Source of the DNA: a bacterium
GTDB taxonomy: Bacteria > Sysuimicrobiota > Sysuimicrobiia > Sysuimicrobiales > Thermofontiviventaceae
Assembly: GCA_030550015.1 (NCBI GenBank)
Contig: JAUQQG010000053.1
Span: 1 to 64,000 of the forward strand
Length of the DNA: 64,000 nucleotides
Reading direction: 5' to 3'
Shown: piece after piece, positions 45,049 through 54,543 of the stretch
How the letters are laid out: each line of letters begins with the position of its first letter
How positions within the stretch are numbered: the stretch's first letter is position 1
Program-made: the position numbers and the translations under genes
Notes under the pieces: model-generated
The model's input: the letters and a program-made list of their open reading frames with translations, nothing else
Database searches by the model: none
Told to the model about the DNA's origin: nothing

Positions 45049-46622
45049 GCGAGGCTCCATGGATTGACGAAGTTCGCATCCCCCAGGGGCGAGGGGAGGT
45101 CCTCTGCGTCCCCCCTGCGGGGAAAGCAGGAGAGCTCCTCCAGAGAAACCCTCTGGCCACCCTGGACGTAGAAGTCCTGGGGAGGAGCCTCCCTGAGTTC
45201 CGCGAGGAACTTCAGGAGGCCGTCTTGGGGTTGGCTCGGAAGTTCATGGAATCCATAGGGGTCACAGTTCCTACTCCTCCTTGTAAGGGAGCGAGGTTTA
45301 TCCTCACAGGCCACCAGCCTGTTTTCTTCCACCCTGGGATCTGGATCAAGCACTTCCTCCTTGAGCGGCTCAGGATCTCCTTGGGAGCAATTGGCCTCAA
45401 CGTGGTGGTCGATACCGACGAGGTAGGGGAGGTCACGGTCGAGATCCCCGCGCGAAGGGAACGGTTTCGCATCGTCCGGGAAACACTCCTGCGTGCTCCC
45501 AGCGATGTCCCCTTTGAGGCCCATCGGCCTCCTTCGAGGGATGAGTGGGATGGATTCCTTGGGCGGATCGCCGCGCACCTGAATACATTGGGGAAGCCTC
45601 GCTTCAGAGAATCGTTGGACCACTTCTCAGAAGCCGCGGTATTTGTGCAGGAACGCGTCCAAACCCTGGGGGAGTTCCTGGCTGCAGCTCGCAGGCGGTA
45701 TGAACAGGGAGGAGGGTCCAGGGGGTATCTGGAGGTCCCTCTCTCCTGGATCTGCCAGCTGCCGCAGTTCTTGTGGTTTTTCCTTTCCATCGCTGTGCGT
45801 GCCCAGACCTTCGCGCGTATCACGAATGCGCATCTCGCTACCTACAGACGTCGCCATGGTCTGCGTTCCCCGGCCCATCCGTTCCCCGACCTCCTGGCCG
45901 AGGGGGAGCTCGTGGAACTTCCTTTTTGGGCCGTTCTCCAGGGCAGGCGCAGGGAGCTCTTCGCCGTCCCTGCACCTGGGGAGATTGCACTCGTTGCCGA
46001 CCGCAGTACGCTGGTTACGCTCCCGGCCGCGCCTGAGGAAGCCCTGGAGGTCCTGGTGCGTTCTGCCCTCAAGATCCGCCCCCGGGCGATTACATTGACC
46101 ATGTTCTGCCGCCTCTTCATAGCGGACCTGTTCATCCACGGTGTCGGAGGAAGTCGCTACGACGAGGTGACCGATGCTGTCATCCGTGACTTCTGGGGGA
46201 TCGCGCCGCCTCCTTACATCGTGGCATCGGCGACACTCTGGCCGGATCTCGACGGTCACGAGGAGGTGGAGGAGGAGCGCAGGCAGCTGCAGAAACGTCT
46301 CCTGGACCTCCGCCACAATCCTGACCGCCACCTTCCGAACCCCACTCCTGAGCAAGTCGCGCTCATCGAGGAGAAATGGCGGTATATCCGCTCCCTGGAG
46401 GAGGGACTCCCGCGCAAGAGGCGGAGGGAGCTGACCAGGCGGATCAGGGAGATCAACGTGCGCCTGAGCGAAGCCCTGCGGGAGGAGATTGCCGAAGTGG
46501 AGGAGAGGCTCAGCCAGCTCAAGTCCCGGTTGGAAGAGGCACAAGCAGCCACGTATCGCGGGTACCCGTACTTCTTGTTCTTCCCCCACGAGGTGGAATC
46601 GCTCGTGGATCACATGGGGTAG
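45045..46622 (+). CDS. BshC-like protein (putative cysteine-adding enzyme of a bacillithiol-type pathway)
   Basis: A 525-residue protein. The N-terminal half has a TGHQPVFFHPGIWIKH motif (from residue 88) followed by VVVDTDEVGEV. This resembles, at low identity, the TGQQPG...YK and ...EDHD pattern of BshC. The middle has ITLTMFCRLFIADLFIHGVGG and PPYIVASATLWP. The C-terminal 120 residues form a long heptad-rich coiled coil, also a BshC trait. BshC joins cysteine to GlcN-malate. The ATGA overlap with bshB supports that role, but the usual BshC residues differ enough that substrate or chemistry may differ. It also resembles uncharacterised GHQP-motif proteins. Confidence 0.6.
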   Translation: MSEAPWIDEVRIPQGRGEVLCVPPAGKAGELLQRNPLATLDVEVLGRSLPEFREELQEAVLGLARKFMESIGVTVPTPPCKGARFILTGHQPVFFHPGIWIKHFLLERLRISLGAIGLNVVVDTDEVGEVTVEIPARRERFRIVRETLLRAPSDVPFEAHRPPSRDEWDGFLGRIAAHLNTLGKPRFRESLDHFSEAAVFVQERVQTLGEFLAAARRRYEQGGGSRGYLEVPLSWICQLPQFLWFFLSIAVRAQTFARITNAHLATYRRRHGLRSPAHPFPDLLAEGELVELPFWAVLQGRRRELFAVPAPGEIALVADRSTLVTLPAAPEEALEVLVRSALKIRPRAITLTMFCRLFIADLFIHGVGGSRYDEVTDAVIRDFWGIAPPPYIVASATLWPDLDGHEEVEEERRQLQKRLLDLRHNPDRHLPNPTPEQVALIEEKWRYIRSLEEGLPRKRRRELTRRIREINVRLSEALREEIAEVEERLSQLKSRLEEAQAATYRGYPYFLFFPHEVESLVDHMG

Positions 46623-46633
46623 GGAGTGCAAGG

Positions 46634-47353
46634 ATGGTGCAGGAGGACCGAAGAGCAGTCGAGGCCCGTGGCGTGAAAAAGGCCTTCGGGCGAACTTGGG
46701 CGTTGAGGGGCGTGGACCTCGAGGTGAGGCCAGGGGAGTATCTCGCCTTGCTCGGGCCCAACGGTTCGGGGAAGACGACCCTTTTGCGGATCCTGGCCAC
46801 GCTCATCCGCCCGACGGAGGGGAACATCCGGATCTTCGGGCGTGACCCGCGCAGGGAGGGCGAGGAGTGCAGGAGGCTCCTGGGCTTCGTGGGCCATGAC
46901 TCCTTCCTCTACGGGAGCCTTTCGGTGAGCGAGAATTTGCATTTCTACGCGCGCTTGTTTGGCCTTCCTGATATCCCGGCCCGTACGAGGCAGGTCCTGG
47001 AAGCATTGGGACTTGAGCGCCGCGCCCATGACCTTGTCCGGACCCTCTCCCGAGGTCTCCAACAACGGGTCGCTATTGCGCGCGCGCTGCTTCATGATCC
47101 CATTTTGCTTCTTTTGGATGAGCCTTTCACAGGGCTGGATGCGCAGGCCAGTCGCAGTCTAGGAGAGCTGCTGGCCTCTCTCCGTCAGGAAGGGAGGGCG
47201 ATCATCATGGCGACCCATAACCTGAACGAAGGTCTCGAGGCCTGCGACCGGGCGGTGATCCTCCTCGATGGGCGCGTTGCCCGAGTGATGGAAGGTCCAG
47301 AGATACGAGGGGAGCGCCTGCGGGAGGCGTTCCTGGCTACACTGGAAAGCTGA
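46634..47353 (+). CDS. ccmA: CcmA, haem exporter ATP-binding subunit
   Basis: A 239-residue ABC ATPase. Walker A GPNGSGKT is at 41-48, signature LSRGLQQRVAIARAL and Walker B LLLDEPFTGLD. It is called CcmA from the following ccmB, ccmC, ccmD and ccmE. CcmAB with C and D releases haem-loaded CcmE for cytochrome c maturation. It begins 11 bp after the BshC-like gene. Confidence 0.9.
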   Translation: MVQEDRRAVEARGVKKAFGRTWALRGVDLEVRPGEYLALLGPNGSGKTTLLRILATLIRPTEGNIRIFGRDPRREGEECRRLLGFVGHDSFLYGSLSVSENLHFYARLFGLPDIPARTRQVLEALGLERRAHDLVRTLSRGLQQRVAIARALLHDPILLLLDEPFTGLDAQASRSLGELLASLRQEGRAIIMATHNLNEGLEACDRAVILLDGRVARVMEGPEIRGERLREAFLATLES

Positions 47354-47419
47354 AAGAGCTCCAGCAAACGTCAACATTCTTTGGCCGGGTGAAACATCTT
47401 TGCATCCTCGGAGGTATCT

Positions 47420-48094
47420 ATGGGGAGGGCGATCCTGACGTTGCTCTGGAAGGACCTGCGCGTCGAGCTCAGGACCAAGGAGATCCTGACCACCATGATG
47501 GTCCTGGCTCTGCTCATCCTTGTGATCCTGAACGTGGCCATGGGACAAAACGTCGTGACCGTCAAGCTGGCTGCATCCGGGGTCCTCTGGGTAGTCTTCA
47601 CCTTCGCTGCAACCCTGGGCCTGAGCAGGGTTTTCCTTGTCGAGAAGGAGCGGGGCCAGCTCAGCGGCATCCTCCTTGCCCCCATGGACAGGAGCGCGAT
47701 CTTCCTGGGGAAGATGATCGGGAGCACCATCCTCGTCCTCCTTGTGGAGGCCGTAGCCCTTCCTGTCTTCGTGGTGTTGTTCAACTTCCCTCTTGGGGGA
47801 CGGGTCGGTCCCCTCCTCCTTCCCCTGTTTCTGGGGACGGTTGGGTTTATTGCGGTGGAGACCCTGTTCTCGGCGATCTCGGCGCAGACACGCCTCCGGG
47901 AGATCCTCCTTCCCCTCCTGGCGTTCCCCGTGGCGATGCCGGCTCTGGTGGGAGCGGTCGGTGCGACAGCGAAGGTGCTGGATGGCCTTCCCCTTCAGTC
48001 CGCCGCGCCTGAGTTGCAACTCCTGGTGGCCTTTGATATACTCTTCGTGGCCATTGGGCTGGTTGTCTTCGAGTACGTCGTGGAGGAGGAATGA
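47420..48094 (+). CDS. ccmB: CcmB, haem exporter permease
   Basis: A 224-residue membrane protein with six hydrophobic helices. The motif EKERGQLSGILLAPMDRSAIFLGK is typical of CcmB. The 66-bp gap after ccmA contains the GACGTTTGC-type repeat in reverse orientation. Its stop overlaps the ccmC ATG (ATGA). Confidence 0.92.
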   Translation: MGRAILTLLWKDLRVELRTKEILTTMMVLALLILVILNVAMGQNVVTVKLAASGVLWVVFTFAATLGLSRVFLVEKERGQLSGILLAPMDRSAIFLGKMIGSTILVLLVEAVALPVFVVLFNFPLGGRVGPLLLPLFLGTVGFIAVETLFSAISAQTRLREILLPLLAFPVAMPALVGAVGATAKVLDGLPLQSAAPELQLLVAFDILFVAIGLVVFEYVVEEE

Positions 48095-48768
48095 TGGCCA
48101 GAGGCTTTGATGATCGGGCCATTGCCTGGATTCTCCTCGTCGCAATGGTTGTCTCCCTGTACATGGTCTTCATGTACGTCCCCACAGAACGAGAGATGGG
48201 CATCATCCAGCGGATCTTCTACTTCCATGTCCCCCTTGCGTGGATTTCCTTCCTGGCCTTCCTGATGGTATGTATCGCAGGGATTCAGTACTTGCGGCAG
48301 CGGTCCCGTTGGTGGGATGCCCTTGGTACAAGTGCCGCCGAGATCGGGGTGCTCTTTAGCACACTCGTCCTCATCACTGGTTCGATCTGGGCAAAGCCCA
48401 TTTGGGGGACGTGGTGGACGTGGGAGCCCAGGCTCGTGACCTTCCTGATCCTCTGGTTCATCTACGTGGGCTACCTCTTGTTGCGTGCCGCCGCAGGTGA
48501 TGACGAGCGGAAGGCGCGGCTCGCTGCAGTTGTAGGGATCGTGGGATTTCTAGATGTCCCCCTGGTCTTCTTCTCTGCCCGCCTCCTCCGAGGGCTGTCA
48601 CCGGTGGTGTTCACGCGCCAGGGTGCCGGCCTTGCTCCACCGATGCTGTGGACGCTTCTCGTCTCCCTGGCCACCTTCACGCTCCTCTTCGTTCTCTTGC
48701 TTCGTCAGAGGCTTTTCCTAGAGCTTGCAAGGGATGAAGTAGAATCGCTCAAGGAGCTGGTACCGTGA
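48091..48768 (+). CDS. ccmC: CcmC, haem-handling membrane protein
   Basis: A 225-residue protein with six hydrophobic helices and the tryptophan-rich motif WGTWWTWEPRLVTFLILW. The haem-binding histidine candidate is in IFYFHVPLAW. A second expected histidine in the later loop is not obvious. CcmC loads haem onto CcmE. It overlaps ccmB and ccmD at both ends (4 bp each). Confidence 0.93.
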   Translation: MMARGFDDRAIAWILLVAMVVSLYMVFMYVPTEREMGIIQRIFYFHVPLAWISFLAFLMVCIAGIQYLRQRSRWWDALGTSAAEIGVLFSTLVLITGSIWAKPIWGTWWTWEPRLVTFLILWFIYVGYLLLRAAAGDDERKARLAAVVGIVGFLDVPLVFFSARLLRGLSPVVFTRQGAGLAPPMLWTLLVSLATFTLLFVLLLRQRLFLELARDEVESLKELVP

Positions 48769-48950
48769 AGAACCTGACGCTGCTGTTCTTTGCTTATCTC
48801 ATGATCTGGATCGGCCTGTTTGCCTACCTGCTCTTTCTCATCCAGCGGGGGCTGGCGCTGTCAAGGGAGATTGCGGCGTTGAAGCAAGCGCTTGCTGCAG
48901 GGAACAAGGGCGACCCTGAGAAGAGAAAGGACCGAGGGGAGACTCCATGA
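48765..48950 (+). CDS. ccmD: CcmD-like small membrane protein
   Basis: A 61-residue protein with one membrane helix (about 5-28) and a charged cytoplasmic tail. It lies between ccmC and ccmE with a GTGA overlap. CcmD helps release haem-CcmE from CcmABC. Sequence conservation is low, so the call is by position and topology. Confidence 0.75.
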   Translation: MKNLTLLFFAYLMIWIGLFAYLLFLIQRGLALSREIAALKQALAAGNKGDPEKRKDRGETP

Positions 48951-49025
48951 GAGGGACCCCGGGCGGATGGGAAAAGACCTTTTGGAAGGGCACTGAGAAA
49001 CTCATCCGGTTGTAGGGGGGTAGCG

Positions 49026-49418
49026 ATGCGAGGGAAACGGTGGAAATTCCTGGTCGTCGTCCTGGCCATTGTGCTCGTGCTGTCGTACCTGGTGTATGCC
49101 GGGGTCCGCAGGGCTTCGGTGTACTACCTTACCGTGAGCGAGCTCCTGGTCCAGGGGAACCGGAGCATGGATCTCCCCGCCCGCGTTAGCGGGAAGGTTG
49201 TCCCTGGTTCGATCCAGTGGGACCAGCTCCGCCAGTCCCTTCGCTTCCGCATCACGGATGGGCAGAAGGTCCTCTTTGTACGCTACCAGGGTGTCGTCCC
49301 GGATATTTTCGGTGACGGCAAGGAGGTTGTGGTGGAGGGGCGCCTCAGCCCGCAAGGGGAGTTCATGGCCACAACCCTCCTGGCCAAGTGCCCCACGAAG
49401 TACGAGCCAGCGGAGTAG
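49026..49418 (+). CDS. ccmE: CcmE, periplasmic haem chaperone of the CxxxY type
   Basis: A 130-residue OB-fold protein with an N-terminal membrane anchor (about 8-26). The residue that binds haem covalently in E. coli is a histidine in HxxxY. Here the site reads C122-P-T-K-Y126, the CxxxY variant known from some archaea and delta-type proteobacteria. GIQWDQ, LRFRITDG, VRYQGVVPDIF and VVVEGRL are the usual family blocks. It passes haem to apocytochromes such as the dihaem cytochrome c encoded next. ccmF, ccmG and ccmH are not in the window. Confidence 0.92.
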   Translation: MRGKRWKFLVVVLAIVLVLSYLVYAGVRRASVYYLTVSELLVQGNRSMDLPARVSGKVVPGSIQWDQLRQSLRFRITDGQKVLFVRYQGVVPDIFGDGKEVVVEGRLSPQGEFMATTLLAKCPTKYEPAE

Positions 49419-49608: not shown

Positions 49609-50484
49609 ATGCGGATTCAAATCGGTCCTTTGATTGTGACGGCTCTGGCAGTGATTGTGTTGCTCCTGATTGCCTTCCCTCCCACGGTGGATTTCTCCCG
49701 GGCGCAGGTAGGTCTCAACACGCCTCTCCCGTTGTCCAGGGGGGAGCAGCGCCTTGTCCCTGGTAAGCCCTCGGCGGTCCGCGGGGAGAAGGTCTTCCAG
49801 AAACAGTGCGCCCTGTGTCATGGTCCGGAGGGACGAGGGGATGGTCCTGCGGCGAGCAAATTGGTGACGCCGGGGCGTAGCCTCCTCACCGATTTCCTGG
49901 GGGTCTTCGGGATCAAGGTCAAAGCCGAGCAGTTGCCTTCCCGCCCGGCGAACTTCCACAACCTGGACGCCCAGCGGCTCAACTCCCCCTTCCTGAACTA
50001 TGAGACGGTCACGCTGGGTCGCCCGCATACAGCGATGCCCGCGTTCGGCCCGAGAGCACCTTATGGCGTCAACAAAGGCGCCATGTTGACCGATCAGGAG
50101 CGCTGGGATGTGGTCTTCTTTGAATGGGAGTTCCAAACCTCCGCGGAGCGCCTAGCGCGAGCCAAGGAGATCTACGAGAACCGGGTGATCGAAGGGAACA
50201 CTTGCGCAAGTTGCCACGGGGTTGCTGGGGACGGCCGAGGGCCGCGGGGTGCGGAGATGGCCGGGAAATTGTGGACGTGGGCGGCGGGACGAGGGCCAGG
50301 GATTTTCACCGACATCAACCACCTGGGCCAACGAAAGCCCTCCGACCTCTTCCAGGTGATCGAGGATGGGAGTCCCAACGGCTTGATGCCCTCGTACAAG
50401 GGGAAACTCTCCGAGGATGAGATGTGGATGCTTGTGGAGTATGTCTATACCTTCGTCTACGAACCGAAAGGGCAGGTGAAGTAA
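49609..50484 (+). CDS. Dihaem cytochrome c, membrane-anchored
   Basis: A 291-residue protein with an N-terminal hydrophobic anchor (about 8-26) and two c-type haem sites, C67-ALCH and C199-ASCH. The likely methionine ligands lie in AMPAFGP (first half) and GLMPSYKGKL (second half). Each half looks like a class I cytochrome c domain. It precedes the Rieske gene by 5 bp, so it should be the cytochrome c subunit that takes electrons from the Rieske centre. Its maturation proteins (ccmABCDE) are encoded directly upstream. Confidence 0.9.
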   Translation: MRIQIGPLIVTALAVIVLLLIAFPPTVDFSRAQVGLNTPLPLSRGEQRLVPGKPSAVRGEKVFQKQCALCHGPEGRGDGPAASKLVTPGRSLLTDFLGVFGIKVKAEQLPSRPANFHNLDAQRLNSPFLNYETVTLGRPHTAMPAFGPRAPYGVNKGAMLTDQERWDVVFFEWEFQTSAERLARAKEIYENRVIEGNTCASCHGVAGDGRGPRGAEMAGKLWTWAAGRGPGIFTDINHLGQRKPSDLFQVIEDGSPNGLMPSYKGKLSEDEMWMLVEYVYTFVYEPKGQVK

Positions 50485-50489
50485 AACGG

Positions 50490-51131
50490 ATGGAAGAGCG
50501 CGTCAACCGGAGGACGTTTCTCAAACTCCTTATGGGCGTGCCGGCTTTTGGTGCCATCGCAGCAGCGCTTTCCCCGTTGCTCCGGTACCTCAAGCCCAAT
50601 CTCCCACCCTATCAGCTGAACCCGCTGACCGTTGGGGACAAACCCCATGGATCCCCGGTAGTGGCGGCAACCCTCTCGGAGCTTCGGGAGCCCTGGAGTT
50701 ACAAGTACTTTACCTTCGTCCAGCAGTATCCCCAGTACACGCCTGAAGGGTTCAAGAACGCCACCGTTCCAGGGGTCGTCATCCGCCTCCCCCGGAAGGT
50801 TGTCCTTCCCTGGGAGTGGGCGGGCGAAAAGCGGAAGGAGAGCGATATCGTCGCCTTCTCGCGCATCTGTCCCCATCTCGGGTGCATCTTCAACTACGTT
50901 CCTGAGTGGAAGGAGATCACATCTGGGTATGGAGGCTATGTTCCGCCCCCGGATCGTCGCCATGCGCTCATGGGCTGCCCATGCCATCTCAGCATCTATG
51001 ATCCTGCCGATCCCGATGTCCCAGGGAGGGTCCTCTCCGGTCCAGCGCCGCGACCTCCTCGGACCTTCCTGTTTGCGGTGAAGGAGGGGGACATTGTCAT
51101 CACCGACGTGGAGCCCGGTGGGATCGCCTAG
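50490..51131 (+). CDS. Rieske iron-sulfur protein of a cytochrome b complex (Tat signal)
   Basis: A 213-residue Rieske protein. The N-terminus NRRTFLKLLMG followed by a hydrophobic stretch is a twin-arginine signal that also anchors the protein. The 2Fe-2S ligands and disulfide lie in C127-PHLGC132 and C163-PCH166. An insert of about 30 residues between the two boxes and a rather long segment at 60-95 are noticeable. It should accept electrons from quinol at the Qo site of the cytochrome b encoded next. tatA is encoded at 57423. Confidence 0.93.
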   Translation: MEERVNRRTFLKLLMGVPAFGAIAAALSPLLRYLKPNLPPYQLNPLTVGDKPHGSPVVAATLSELREPWSYKYFTFVQQYPQYTPEGFKNATVPGVVIRLPRKVVLPWEWAGEKRKESDIVAFSRICPHLGCIFNYVPEWKEITSGYGGYVPPPDRRHALMGCPCHLSIYDPADPDVPGRVLSGPAPRPPRTFLFAVKEGDIVITDVEPGGIA

Positions 51132-51175: not shown

Positions 51176-52315
51176 ATGGGAAAGTTGGGAGTCGTTGGGG
51201 AATGGATCAAAGACCGGAAGGAACACCTCGATCTCTTTGACGAGACCAACGTCCATAGACAGGGGAATCCCTTTTATCTCCTCGGCCCGATGGTGTACTA
51301 CTTCTGGCTCATCACCATCGTGAGTGGTCTCCTCCTTATGATCTGGTACGAGCCCACCACTGCCGGTGCATACAACTCCATCCTGCACATCCAGCACGAG
51401 ATCCCTCTTGGCTGGTTGATCCGCGGCCTCCACAAGTACGGCGCTGATGCCTTGATCATCGCCATTACCCTGCGCATCTACCGTATGTACTTCCTGGGGG
51501 AGTACAAGAAGCCAGGGGAGCTCTCCTGGATGATCGCGTTCGCCTCGCTGATCCTGGCGATGATTTCTGGGATCACAGGCTATCTCCTCATCTGGAACCA
51601 GCGTGCCTTCTGGGCGGCCAAGGTCGTGCTCACGGTCCCCATCTACTTTGACGAGCTCCCCCTCATTGGGCAGACGAGGTTTGGTTCCGCTATCGCTTAC
51701 ATCTTCCTCGGGGGCCCGGCCATCGGCCAGGCAACCCTCACCAGGTTCTATATGATCCATTTCAGCATCTCTGTGATTGCCCTCATCCTCACGGAGATCT
51801 TCTTCCAGCGGACCCGGCGCAAGCGGTTGAATATGTCGCTTGCAAGTGTCCTGGTCTTCTTCCTCATGCTCGCCGCGATCAGCTACCTCCTCCCAGCGGA
51901 ACTGGGGAGGAGAGCTAACCCAGACCGGACGCCCCTTCCTATTCTCTCGGACTGGTACTTCCTGGCCCTCTACCAGTTCGTCAAGTACACGCCGCCCCTG
52001 TGGGCTGGTCTTGGGCCGGGGTTGCTCATCGCCTTCGGGATGCTTGTCCCCTTTCTGGATAGGAGCAAAGGGAGACGGCCTTCGGAGCGTCCCTTCTTTA
52101 CCGTGGTGGGGATCATGGCCCTCGTCTACTTCCTTGTGTTCACAGTCCTGATTCTGTTCAATATCGCTGTCATCGAGCGCGATCCACCAATCATCCTAGC
52201 CATCACCGTCGTGGTCCTTGCACTTGGACTCCTTTGGGAGATCCGCTACCGGAGGCGACAGCTTGGACAGCTCGTGTCTTCGCCGAAGCCTGCCGAGAAC
52301 CCGGCCTCGGAGTAG
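51176..52315 (+). CDS. Cytochrome b (first of two), fused b6-IV type, lacking haem bH ligands
   Basis: A 379-residue cytochrome b with about eight helices. His86 (GLHKYGAD, helix B) and His195 (MIHFSIS, helix D) match the two haem bL ligands. The haem bH positions are not histidine: residue 100 is Arg (TLRIYRMY) and there is no His in the rest of helix D (Phe209/Phe210). Cys35 of b6-type haem ci is also absent. The Qo motif reads S258-D-W-Y261, close to PEWY/PDWY. It should still form a Qo site but cannot pass electrons to a normal haem bH. GGGAGG precedes the ATG. Confidence 0.88.
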   Translation: MGKLGVVGEWIKDRKEHLDLFDETNVHRQGNPFYLLGPMVYYFWLITIVSGLLLMIWYEPTTAGAYNSILHIQHEIPLGWLIRGLHKYGADALIIAITLRIYRMYFLGEYKKPGELSWMIAFASLILAMISGITGYLLIWNQRAFWAAKVVLTVPIYFDELPLIGQTRFGSAIAYIFLGGPAIGQATLTRFYMIHFSISVIALILTEIFFQRTRRKRLNMSLASVLVFFLMLAAISYLLPAELGRRANPDRTPLPILSDWYFLALYQFVKYTPPLWAGLGPGLLIAFGMLVPFLDRSKGRRPSERPFFTVVGIMALVYFLVFTVLILFNIAVIERDPPIILAITVVVLALGLLWEIRYRRRQLGQLVSSPKPAENPASE

Positions 52316-52391: not shown

Positions 52392-52652
52392 ATGTGGCGG
52401 CATCTATGGTTTTATCTCACCTTCCTGATTGCTGTTCTCGCCCTTTCTCGACTGATCGGGGCAGTGGAGGAGGCGCTGGCGAGAGGGACTGTCCAAGCAT
52501 GGGCACGTGCAGCAATCGTTGTCGCCGCCCTTTTTGTTTCCTTCCTGTACCTGGGGTTTACCCTCTACGAAGTAGATCGCAGGGCTGGAAGGGTGCGACG
52601 GCCCCTCCGGCTGTATGAGTGGTGGATCCGGGCTCGGGGAACGCAGAGGTAA
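52392..52652 (+). CDS. Small two-helix membrane protein of the cytochrome b locus
   Basis: An 86-residue protein with two hydrophobic helices (about 5-25 and 38-60) and a basic C-terminal tail. I do not recognise a family. It starts a group of three genes ending with the cytochrome b-ferredoxin fusion, which suggests an accessory subunit of that complex. Confidence 0.65.
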   Translation: MWRHLWFYLTFLIAVLALSRLIGAVEEALARGTVQAWARAAIVVAALFVSFLYLGFTLYEVDRRAGRVRRPLRLYEWWIRARGTQR

Positions 52653-52656
52653 GGAG

Positions 52657-52845
52657 ATGACGCAGGGGAAGCTGTTGGGTCTGATCCTGGTGCTGTCTGC
52701 GATCGTCGCCGCCGCGAGCGGGGCGATTGTCTACGGGGAGTTCTCCAGAAAGCAGCTCGTTGTCGGAGCCTCCCTTGGGATCATCTTCTTGGCCTATGGA
52801 TTGATCCTGATCATTCTCCGGAAGGGGCGATGGATCCAGGAGTGA
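52657..52845 (+). CDS. Small two-helix membrane protein of the cytochrome b locus
   Basis: A 62-residue protein with two hydrophobic helices separated by GEFSRKQLVVG. The ATG at 52657 has AAGGAG in front; an upstream in-frame ATG at 52615 lies inside the previous gene. No family is recognised. It is probably a small subunit or assembly factor of the neighbouring cytochrome b complex. Confidence 0.6.
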   Translation: MTQGKLLGLILVLSAIVAAASGAIVYGEFSRKQLVVGASLGIIFLAYGLILIILRKGRWIQE

Positions 52846-52909: not shown

Positions 52910-54067
52910 TTGTACAAGCGCATCCTGAAGAACTTGCAGCGAGCCACCCTCCAAGTGGATGTCCTGCTCAACCGCGTTCTGCCTTCTGATTGGAACCCGT
53001 TGTATTACACTGGAGGGCTGTCGAACCTCTTCCTGACCATCCTGATCCTTTCAGGGATCTTTCTCTTCTTCTACTACGTGCCGGATCCCAACGAGGCCCA
53101 CCGCTCCATCACCTTCATCACGGAGCGCGTCCCGTACGGGAGGATCATCCGCGGGGTTCACCGCTATGCCGCCGATGGGTTCATGGTAGCGATTTTCCTC
53201 CACCTTTTCCGGAACTGGTTCACGGAGCGTTACCTTTTCTCCCGGGATATCCCCTGGATCTCCGGGATGTTCCTCCTTGGCTTCGCTGGGTTCGTGGGAA
53301 TCACCGGATACTTCATGGCGTGGGACGACCGGGCGCAGGCCCTCCTGGCAATGACCCTGCATATGCTTCGGTCGATCCCGCTTGTTGGCCCGTGGCTCAA
53401 CGAGCTCCTCCTGGGAGGAGGGGGAGTCGGCGAACGCACCCTCGTGCGTTTTCTCTTCCTCCACGTGGTCCCCGCCGTGACCCTCTACCTCCTGCTCTGG
53501 TGGCATTATATCCGCATCCGTCACCCCAAAATCTGGCCACCGGCGGTCTGGGTGCTGTTCAGCCTGGGGCTTGTCTTTCTCCTCAGTTCCCTCGTGCCTG
53601 TGGTGAGCGGGGTGCCCGCCTCCCCCACGGCACAGCCGCAGGTGATCCCCCTCGACTTCTTATATATGTGGCCTTACTGGTTGCTGAAGTACGTTGGACC
53701 GATCTGGGCGATCGTGCTCGGGTTCGTCCTGTTCAGTTATGGAATGTACATCCCTTACCAACTCCGGGAGAAGCCGGAGGTCATGGGCGTCCGTCACGCA
53801 GGGGTAGCCCAGGTCATTGAGCCGAACTGCACGGGATGCGAGCTTTGTTACTATGACTGCCCCTACAACGCGATCATCATGGTCCCCTCGCCAAGGCCTG
53901 GGCAGACCAAAGCAGCGCAGAACCGCAAGCTGCTTGCCGTGGTGATTGAGTCGCGGTGCGTAGAATGCGGCATCTGCATTGGCGCTTGCCCGTTCCAGGC
54001 TTTAGAACTCCCTCGTTTGATGGAGAATCAAGTGCTTGAAAGGGTGCTGGCAGCATGTCGGAGCTAG
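52910..54067 (+). CDS. Cytochrome b (second of two) fused to a C-terminal 2[4Fe-4S] ferredoxin
   Basis: A 385-residue fusion. The cytochrome b part keeps all four haem histidines: His84 and His98 in helix B, His185 and His199 in helix D (14-residue spacing). The Qo motif is degraded; the PEWY region reads P247-L-D-F-L-Y. The C-terminal domain holds two ferredoxin motifs, C307/C310/C313/C317 and C350/C353/C356/C360. The iron-sulfur domain would face the cytoplasm if helix count is as in cytochrome b. The TTG start has GAAGGAGG 9 bp upstream. It overlaps the MvhD-like gene by 13 bp. Confidence 0.88.
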   Translation: MYKRILKNLQRATLQVDVLLNRVLPSDWNPLYYTGGLSNLFLTILILSGIFLFFYYVPDPNEAHRSITFITERVPYGRIIRGVHRYAADGFMVAIFLHLFRNWFTERYLFSRDIPWISGMFLLGFAGFVGITGYFMAWDDRAQALLAMTLHMLRSIPLVGPWLNELLLGGGGVGERTLVRFLFLHVVPAVTLYLLLWWHYIRIRHPKIWPPAVWVLFSLGLVFLLSSLVPVVSGVPASPTAQPQVIPLDFLYMWPYWLLKYVGPIWAIVLGFVLFSYGMYIPYQLREKPEVMGVRHAGVAQVIEPNCTGCELCYYDCPYNAIIMVPSPRPGQTKAAQNRKLLAVVIESRCVECGICIGACPFQALELPRLMENQVLERVLAACRS

Positions 54068-54543
54068 AGCACAGTTCCTCTCTGCAATCCCAGGAAAAGC
54101 CCACCCTGAAGGTGGTAGGGTTTGTCTGCGACTGGAGCGTGGATCTCAAAGGTGCGCTCACGGAGGACGGGAGGCTCCGGGAGGTTCCGAACGTCTACGT
54201 GATGATGATCCCCTGTTCGGGGTTCATCCGGCCCTCCTGGCTGGAGTTCGCCCTGAAGAACGGAGCTGACGGAGTGTTTGTCTGCGGGTGCCCGTATGGG
54301 GACTGCCTGAACCGGGAGGGGAATTTTCTCATCAGGAACAGGATCCAGCAGATGCGCCGCCGCCTCCAGCGTCAGAGGATCGATCCAGAGCGGGTAACGA
54401 TGCTGGCTTATGGGCTGCATGATCGGGAGGGATTCCTCTTGGCGATCAAGGCTTTCCTGGAGGATCTGCGCAGGCGGGTCGTGCCAGGAGGCCAGGCGGT
54501 GACGAGGGCCGCTCAGCAAAGCAGCCCCAACGAAATCTCTTGA
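54055..54543 (+). CDS. MvhD-like iron-sulfur protein (hydrogenase/heterodisulfide-reductase-associated family)
   Basis: A 162-residue protein of the MvhD/FlpD family. Family motifs are VGFVCDWS near the N-terminus, MMIPCSGFIRPSWL, GADGVFVCGCPYGDC and REGNFLIRNR. MvhD carries a 2Fe-2S cluster and passes electrons between hydrogenase or formate dehydrogenase and HdrA. The usual N-terminal CCNWCS is reduced to a single Cys (VCDWS). Translation overlaps the cytochrome b-ferredoxin fusion, so it is likely its soluble redox partner. No hdr or mvh genes are in the window. Confidence 0.82.
   Translation: MSELEHSSSLQSQEKPTLKVVGFVCDWSVDLKGALTEDGRLREVPNVYVMMIPCSGFIRPSWLEFALKNGADGVFVCGCPYGDCLNREGNFLIRNRIQQMRRRLQRQRIDPERVTMLAYGLHDREGFLLAIKAFLEDLRRRVVPGGQAVTRAAQQSSPNEIS

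Follow-up and report, generated by a model that had tools for sequence, protein, structure and literature searches.

The DNA stretch analysed here (the window, 64,000 nucleotides of a bacterial contig) carries at positions 51176–52315 of the + strand a gene for a cytochrome b of 379 aa, which we call CytB-A (A below; Pfam Cytochrome_B, E 3.7e-32). According to an initial annotation this protein has lost both ligands of haem bH while keeping both ligands of haem bL, and may pass electrons sideways to another cytochrome b. This raises the question of whether the loss is genuine and, if it is, where the electron from haem bL would go.

Haem ligands of CytB-A

The codons for His86 (CAC, 51431–51433) and His195 (CAT, 51758–51760) were read in the gene, and these residues are conserved in 94/94 and 95/95 orthologues, respectively. 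Alignment with solved b6 structures placed R100 (CGC, 51473–51475) opposite the helix-B ligand of haem bH and H195 opposite the helix-D ligand of haem bL; the pairing of ligands can be made precise, with haem bL held jointly by H86 and H195. The lost helix-D ligand of haem bH corresponds to F209 (TTC, 51800–51802), which is followed by F210 (TTC at 51803). The orthologues, 95 distinct A sequences from relatives of the same order and from a collection of genome contigs, have Arg (86) or Lys (8) in column 100 and Tyr (71), Phe (18), Leu (5) or Met (1) in column 209, and never His in either, so that both annotated absences hold throughout. The Qo motif SDWY (residues 258–261, 51947–51958), described as close to normal, is identical in 95/95.

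A joint alignment of 95 A sequences, 92 sequences of a second cytochrome b described below (CytB-B, or B) and 19 ordinary cytochromes b revealed His in columns 100 and 209 of every B (92/92) and every ordinary protein (19/19). The Gly of helix C on the bH side (column 121) is present in 100% of the B and ordinary sequences and in 23/95 of A, where 70/95 have Ala, Leu, Cys or Ser instead; the glycines on the bL side are invariant in A, and G37 of helix A is retained. Judged from the aligned residues, the ligand pattern of A lies far beyond chance. The absence of the bH ligands from all orthologues sampled, together with the single origin of A on the tree (see below), agrees with the earlier view of a coordinated loss and not of random decay. 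No support was found for a decaying gene or an assembly artefact, the chance of which we regard as negligible: the reading frame is open and conserved, the bL, Qo and cd-loop residues are invariant in the 95 distinct orthologues, and a sequencing error at the bH codons is excluded because dozens of independent genomes agree.

A second explanation would be that haem bH or some other cofactor is still bound in A, either through unusual ligands (M104, K/R100) or with no axial ligand at all. M104, a Met in 87/95 sequences, lies a single helical turn away from R100, and the retention of G37 also fits a cofactor at this place. However, M104 is not universal, no conserved His, Met or Cys is present at the helix-D site, column 209 is mostly aromatic and the helix-C Gly has been replaced as described. 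In A, only four other His, Met or Cys columns (M104, M129, M231 and M314) exceed 60%, and none of them is a universal replacement at the bH site. We consider retention of a cofactor highly unlikely. Two individual candidates were rejected: M104 as a replacement ligand, being neither universal nor provided with a partner in helix D, and E207 (GAG, 51794–51796) either as a ligand in place of His or as the counterpart of R100 in a salt bridge, because position +12 from H195 faces well off the direction of haem bH in ideal helix geometry. E207 is an invariant residue of helix D peculiar to A, with Glu in 95/95 A sequences, Trp in 91/92 B and Gly, Val, Ala, Leu, Ile or Phe in ordinary cytochromes b.

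The AlphaFold2 model of A (mean pLDDT 82.2, pTM 0.83) gave VIA-align Z scores of ~20–25 to bc1-type cytochromes b, and that of B (mean pLDDT 81.7, pTM 0.82) scores of ~23–28. By Pfam and by the models (Z >20 for both), A and B have the cytochrome b fold. The two pairs of His of a normal cytochrome b are found in B and not in A, which we do not class as a normal cytochrome b because its bH pair is absent.

The operon and the second cytochrome b

The genes are arranged on the + strand in the order ccmC, ccmE, cytochrome c, Rieske, CytB-A, two small ORFs, CytB-B, FlpD and cupredoxin. The cytochrome is a di-haem c-type protein with two CxxCH motifs (49609–50484; Pfam Cytochrom_C, E 2.6e-20, in two stretches) and the probable acceptor of electrons from the Rieske protein; a homologue precedes A in most loci that reach far enough. 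The Rieske iron-sulfur protein (50490–51131; Pfam Rieske, E 4.6e-4) contains both cluster motifs, CxH..C and CxxH, as CPHLGC...CPCHLSIYD. Between A and B, reading of the sequence gave an ORF of ~86 aa (52392–52652) and one of 62 aa (52657–52845), both apparently for membrane proteins; the latter has weak homologues in the same position at about a dozen same-order loci. Inspection of ORFs, Pfam searches and comparison of neighbours detected no flavin or NAD(P) gene from cytochrome c through FlpD. Positions 46376–49418 of the window, 5′ of the operon, hold cytochrome c maturation genes (an ABC transporter-like ORF, CcmC and CcmE).

CytB-B (52910–54067, start probably TTG; Pfam Cytochrome_B, E 3.5e-28) has the haem ligands H84, H98, H185 and H199, and all four are found in 92/92 aligned sequences (91/91 where the helix-D region is covered). 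Its C-terminus (53822–54007) carries two [4Fe-4S] motifs matching Pfam Fer4 families, C307/310/313/317 and C350/353/356/360; seven of these eight Cys are invariant in the B alignment and C317 is nearly so. Compared with the PEWY type, the predicted Qo motif is an invariant SDWY in A and a degenerate xDWF or less, with loss of the Tyr, in B. The next gene (54055–54543; Pfam FlpD, E 4.1e-26) codes for a FlpD/MvhD-type iron-sulfur protein in which C25, C54, C79 and C84 are kept in 69–70 of 70 sequences. Four His, eight Fe-S Cys and FlpD, the marks of a cytochrome b/[4Fe-4S]/FlpD module, are thus all present. The Fe-S motifs and degenerate Qo site of B, the FlpD gene and a spread over three phyla are features beyond those of the initial annotation.

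Linkage was counted at loci on genome contigs with enough sequence, leaving out seven where the contig stops first. B was found downstream of A in 73/73 such loci and FlpD beyond B in 68/68. B-like modules were also found outside this setting: 13 other stretches encode relatives in which B and FlpD are fused into one protein with four His and all eight Cys. No Rieske motif and no A were found among the ORFs listed in these stretches; the B module therefore occurs, and can function, without A as well. In the annotated stretches L190 and L193 the fusions (L190–L202, for example L193:6819–8477 and L190:7738–9798) lie near haem-copper oxidase subunits and SCO1-like genes. They share with B and FlpD the four-His cytochrome b, the two [4Fe-4S] motifs and FlpD itself, and differ from the A/B operon in being single proteins with oxidase neighbours and neither A nor Rieske. 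Electrons in these fusions might flow outward from the cytoplasm.

Based on these observations we consider it probable (about 0.6) that A and B would be the unequal, obligately paired protomers of one Rieske/cytochrome b complex, with lateral transfer between their bL haems. A keeps the Qo site and haem bL without bH, while B keeps both haem sites and has a degenerate Qo; in addition, the four same-order genomes of genus g5, which gave no strong match to A, gave none to B either. The existence of B-FlpD fusions without A argues against the pairing. These fusions would equally suit an arrangement in which A forms a homodimer without bH and B belongs to a separate complex encoded in the same operon, both quinol electrons leaving A singly via the Rieske protein or A acting as a slow, non-bifurcating quinol oxidase; physical contact of A with B is a prediction. 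This second arrangement appears improbable to us in view of the perfect linkage at 73/73 loci. Where bH is knocked out, a bL haem that cannot pass its electron on promotes trapping of a semiquinone (PMC4892266), yet the Qo motif of A is invariant.

Distribution and descent of the A/B pair

Carriers of A are recorded as Armatimonadetes, Terrabacteria ANGP1, CSP1-3 (Sysuimicrobiota), Melainabacteria, Vampirovibrio and other non-photosynthetic Cyanobacteria. Among 386 broadly sampled genomes, strong matches to A were confined to its own order and to one further genome, G151, and A was present in 9/386 genomes of the cyanobacterial sample. A third phylum, represented by four genomes, contributed two divergent relatives of A with the same bH loss, in G151 (L143) and G387 (L172). 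The G151 protein has Arg in the bH column and Glu in the E207 column. The pair in G387 is the most divergent: its A has Arg in the bH column, Phe at the position of E207 and ADWY instead of SDWY.

A tree of 110 rows built by maximum likelihood recovered a single origin each for A (support 100/99), B (99/96) and the ordinary cytochromes b (99/95); L172 and L143 drew long-branch warnings. Three A contigs labelled Bacillota, Actinobacteria and Proteobacteria (L045, L082 and L102) fell inside the two main clades and, because of this grouping, are probably mislabelled bins. Pairwise identities of A and of B in 76 genomes were correlated with r 0.935, a value equally expected under plain vertical inheritance. 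At the level of sequence, comparison of the loci demonstrates that the bH ligands are lost in a conserved manner, that A, B and FlpD are linked, that the motifs are present and that A and B each arose once. In Obscuribacter-type proteins (L091:5968–7866 and similar) A is followed by a C-terminal extension of ~200 aa with no Pfam match.

A possible path for the low-potential electron

We infer an A-B heterodimer, a bL-bL step and the direction of flow past bH(B). Quinol, most likely menaquinol, would surrender two electrons at Qo(A), the first of them passing through the Rieske cluster to the di-haem cytochrome c. The second would move from bL(A) across the dimer to bL(B); this low-potential electron must cross because A has no bH. 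From bL(B) it would travel to bH(B) and on to the two [4Fe-4S] clusters and FlpD at the cytoplasmic side. When haem bH is knocked out in Rhodobacter bc1, the remaining b-chain can take up just one electron, and electron transfer between the bL haems of the two monomers has been documented (PMC4892266). By analogy, the earlier proposals that this protomer could not run a normal Q cycle alone and that its haem bL might hand electrons laterally to another cytochrome b both find support, the second as an inference to which the complete cytochrome b downstream of A lends weight.

The quinone and the Rieske potential bear on whether such a path is feasible. Menaquinone is likely because the genome contains futalosine-type genes (two matches to the pathway family PF02621). 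The operon Rieske retains both the Ser and the Tyr that raise the potential of the cluster, and the orthologues compared read CPCHLS[IV][YF] or close variants with the Ser conserved. The Rieske encoded beside the other cytochrome b of the same genome has CACHDGHY and lacks this Ser. That other cytochrome b (L149, contig C112 of the genome, 4358–5440, minus strand) is an ordinary one with all four His and PEWY. In Kuenenia, a Rieske potential above +300 mV has been argued to permit reduction of NAD(P) by a menaquinol complex (PMC12954380). Read from the parallel in the Rieske motif, a wide potential span in the A/B system would favour an uphill branch.

The most likely exit, to which we give a slightly less than even chance, is to a low-potential carrier in the cytoplasm, so that quinol oxidation would drive electrons onto an acceptor that is ferredoxin-like or linked to NAD(P). 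Against such an exit, the operon lacks a conserved subunit for flavin or NAD(P), and most A/B genomes tested have no HdrA-like proteins. HdrA was also rejected as the universal partner of FlpD: it was detected in the genome studied here, in G012 and in G387, and not in the Vampirovibrionia-type genomes tested nor in G017, G036 and G151. More tentative still is the full combination of a natural obligate heterodimer in which the bL-bL step is the sole low-potential outlet, quinol oxidation is coupled to a cytoplasmic ferredoxin-like carrier and there is no Qi site.

As the main alternative, the cytoplasmic arm could run in reverse within the same heterodimer. Ferredoxin or another reductant would then feed FlpD, the [4Fe-4S] clusters and bH(B) in turn, and quinone would be reduced at a putative Qi site on B by the injected electron together with one from bL(A), giving a Q cycle that contains a ferredoxin:quinone reductase. 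The oxidase-linked B-FlpD fusions without Rieske suggest a flow from cytoplasmic Fe-S centres to the membrane, and some Melainabacteria are described as having a partial complex I without NADH-binding subunits (PMC6349859). On the other hand, B lacks the Cys that holds haem c_n in the b6f type (the aligned column is Tyr in 92/92), and the Rieske Ser indicates a large driving force that a reversed arm would not need. We regard the reversed arm as rather unlikely, its probability overlapping with that of the preferred reading.

Returning to that reading, in which A and B pair and electrons leave through the cytoplasmic arm, the nearest known systems share some of its parts. With the bc1/b6f complexes it has in common Rieske, the cytochrome b fold, the bL ligands, a predicted Qo motif and a c-type cytochrome; here, unlike there, two different cytochromes b occur, one without bH ligands and the other with ferredoxin motifs, and FlpD is part of the operon. 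The system appears to be a variant of the Rieske/cytochrome b complexes; its ligand loss is confirmed, and the reading as a coordinated loss with possible lateral transfer is well supported. The anammox complexes of Kuenenia stuttgartiensis (Kuste4569-4574 and Kustd1480-1485) also have a Rieske with the potential-raising Ser, and use of the low-potential electron at the cytoplasmic side through Fe-S clusters has been proposed for them (PMC12954380). In the model of these complexes the cytochrome b forms a homodimer whose haems b occupy the positions known from b6f, and subunit IV-like proteins, multihaem c and an oxidoreductase for NAD(P) are also present (PMC12954380), whereas the A/B operon has two differing cytochromes b, the first without bH ligands, and no gene for an NAD(P) subunit.

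It is a long-standing debate whether electrons cross from bL to bL during normal turnover, and most of the experiments addressing it have relied on engineered mutants. Heterodimeric bc1 of Rhodobacter, attributed to Swierczek 2010 and Lanciano 2013, reportedly had one monomer without bH and the other without Qo, so that crossing was forced. The A/B arrangement resembles these heterodimer mutants, which are laboratory variants of one gene, whereas the A/B asymmetry is natural and common to several phyla. If the A-B dimer is real, the bL-bL step would be obligatory by nature in a family spanning three phyla and would therefore be measurable in a wild-type enzyme; the complex would also show a way of dividing the Q cycle between Qo and bH halves, the latter wired to cytoplasmic Fe-S proteins. 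The open papers searched contain no account of a cytochrome b without bH that is paired with another cytochrome b, though an earlier one may exist. The terms cytochrome b, complex III and Rieske are absent from the Sysuimicrobiota paper (PMC11604079).

The A/B system also bears on the respiration of the non-photosynthetic relatives of Cyanobacteria. In Melainabacteria petB and petC have been reported near oxidases (PMC6349859), a likeness to the A/B operons with petB/petC-like genes near an oxidase; in the part of that article used here this complex III/IV set is annotated as b6f subunits and ligand loss goes unmentioned. In Vampirovibrio the A-B operon comes after genes for a cbb3-type oxidase, which would accept electrons from the c cytochromes. 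At two loci of non-photosynthetic Cyanobacteria (L067:1281–3763 and L091:1629–3982) oxidase genes (COX1; FixO-like in Vampirovibrio) are situated directly 5′ of the cytochrome c-Rieske-A-B-FlpD operon. FlpD also occurs in other company in the genome studied here: on contig C125 (L173 and L174) an HdrA-FlpD fusion follows genes whose starts resemble 2-oxoacid oxidoreductase subunits, and a second HdrA-like/FlpD/CCG-domain set is accompanied by an NADH-dehydrogenase 20 kDa-type small subunit.
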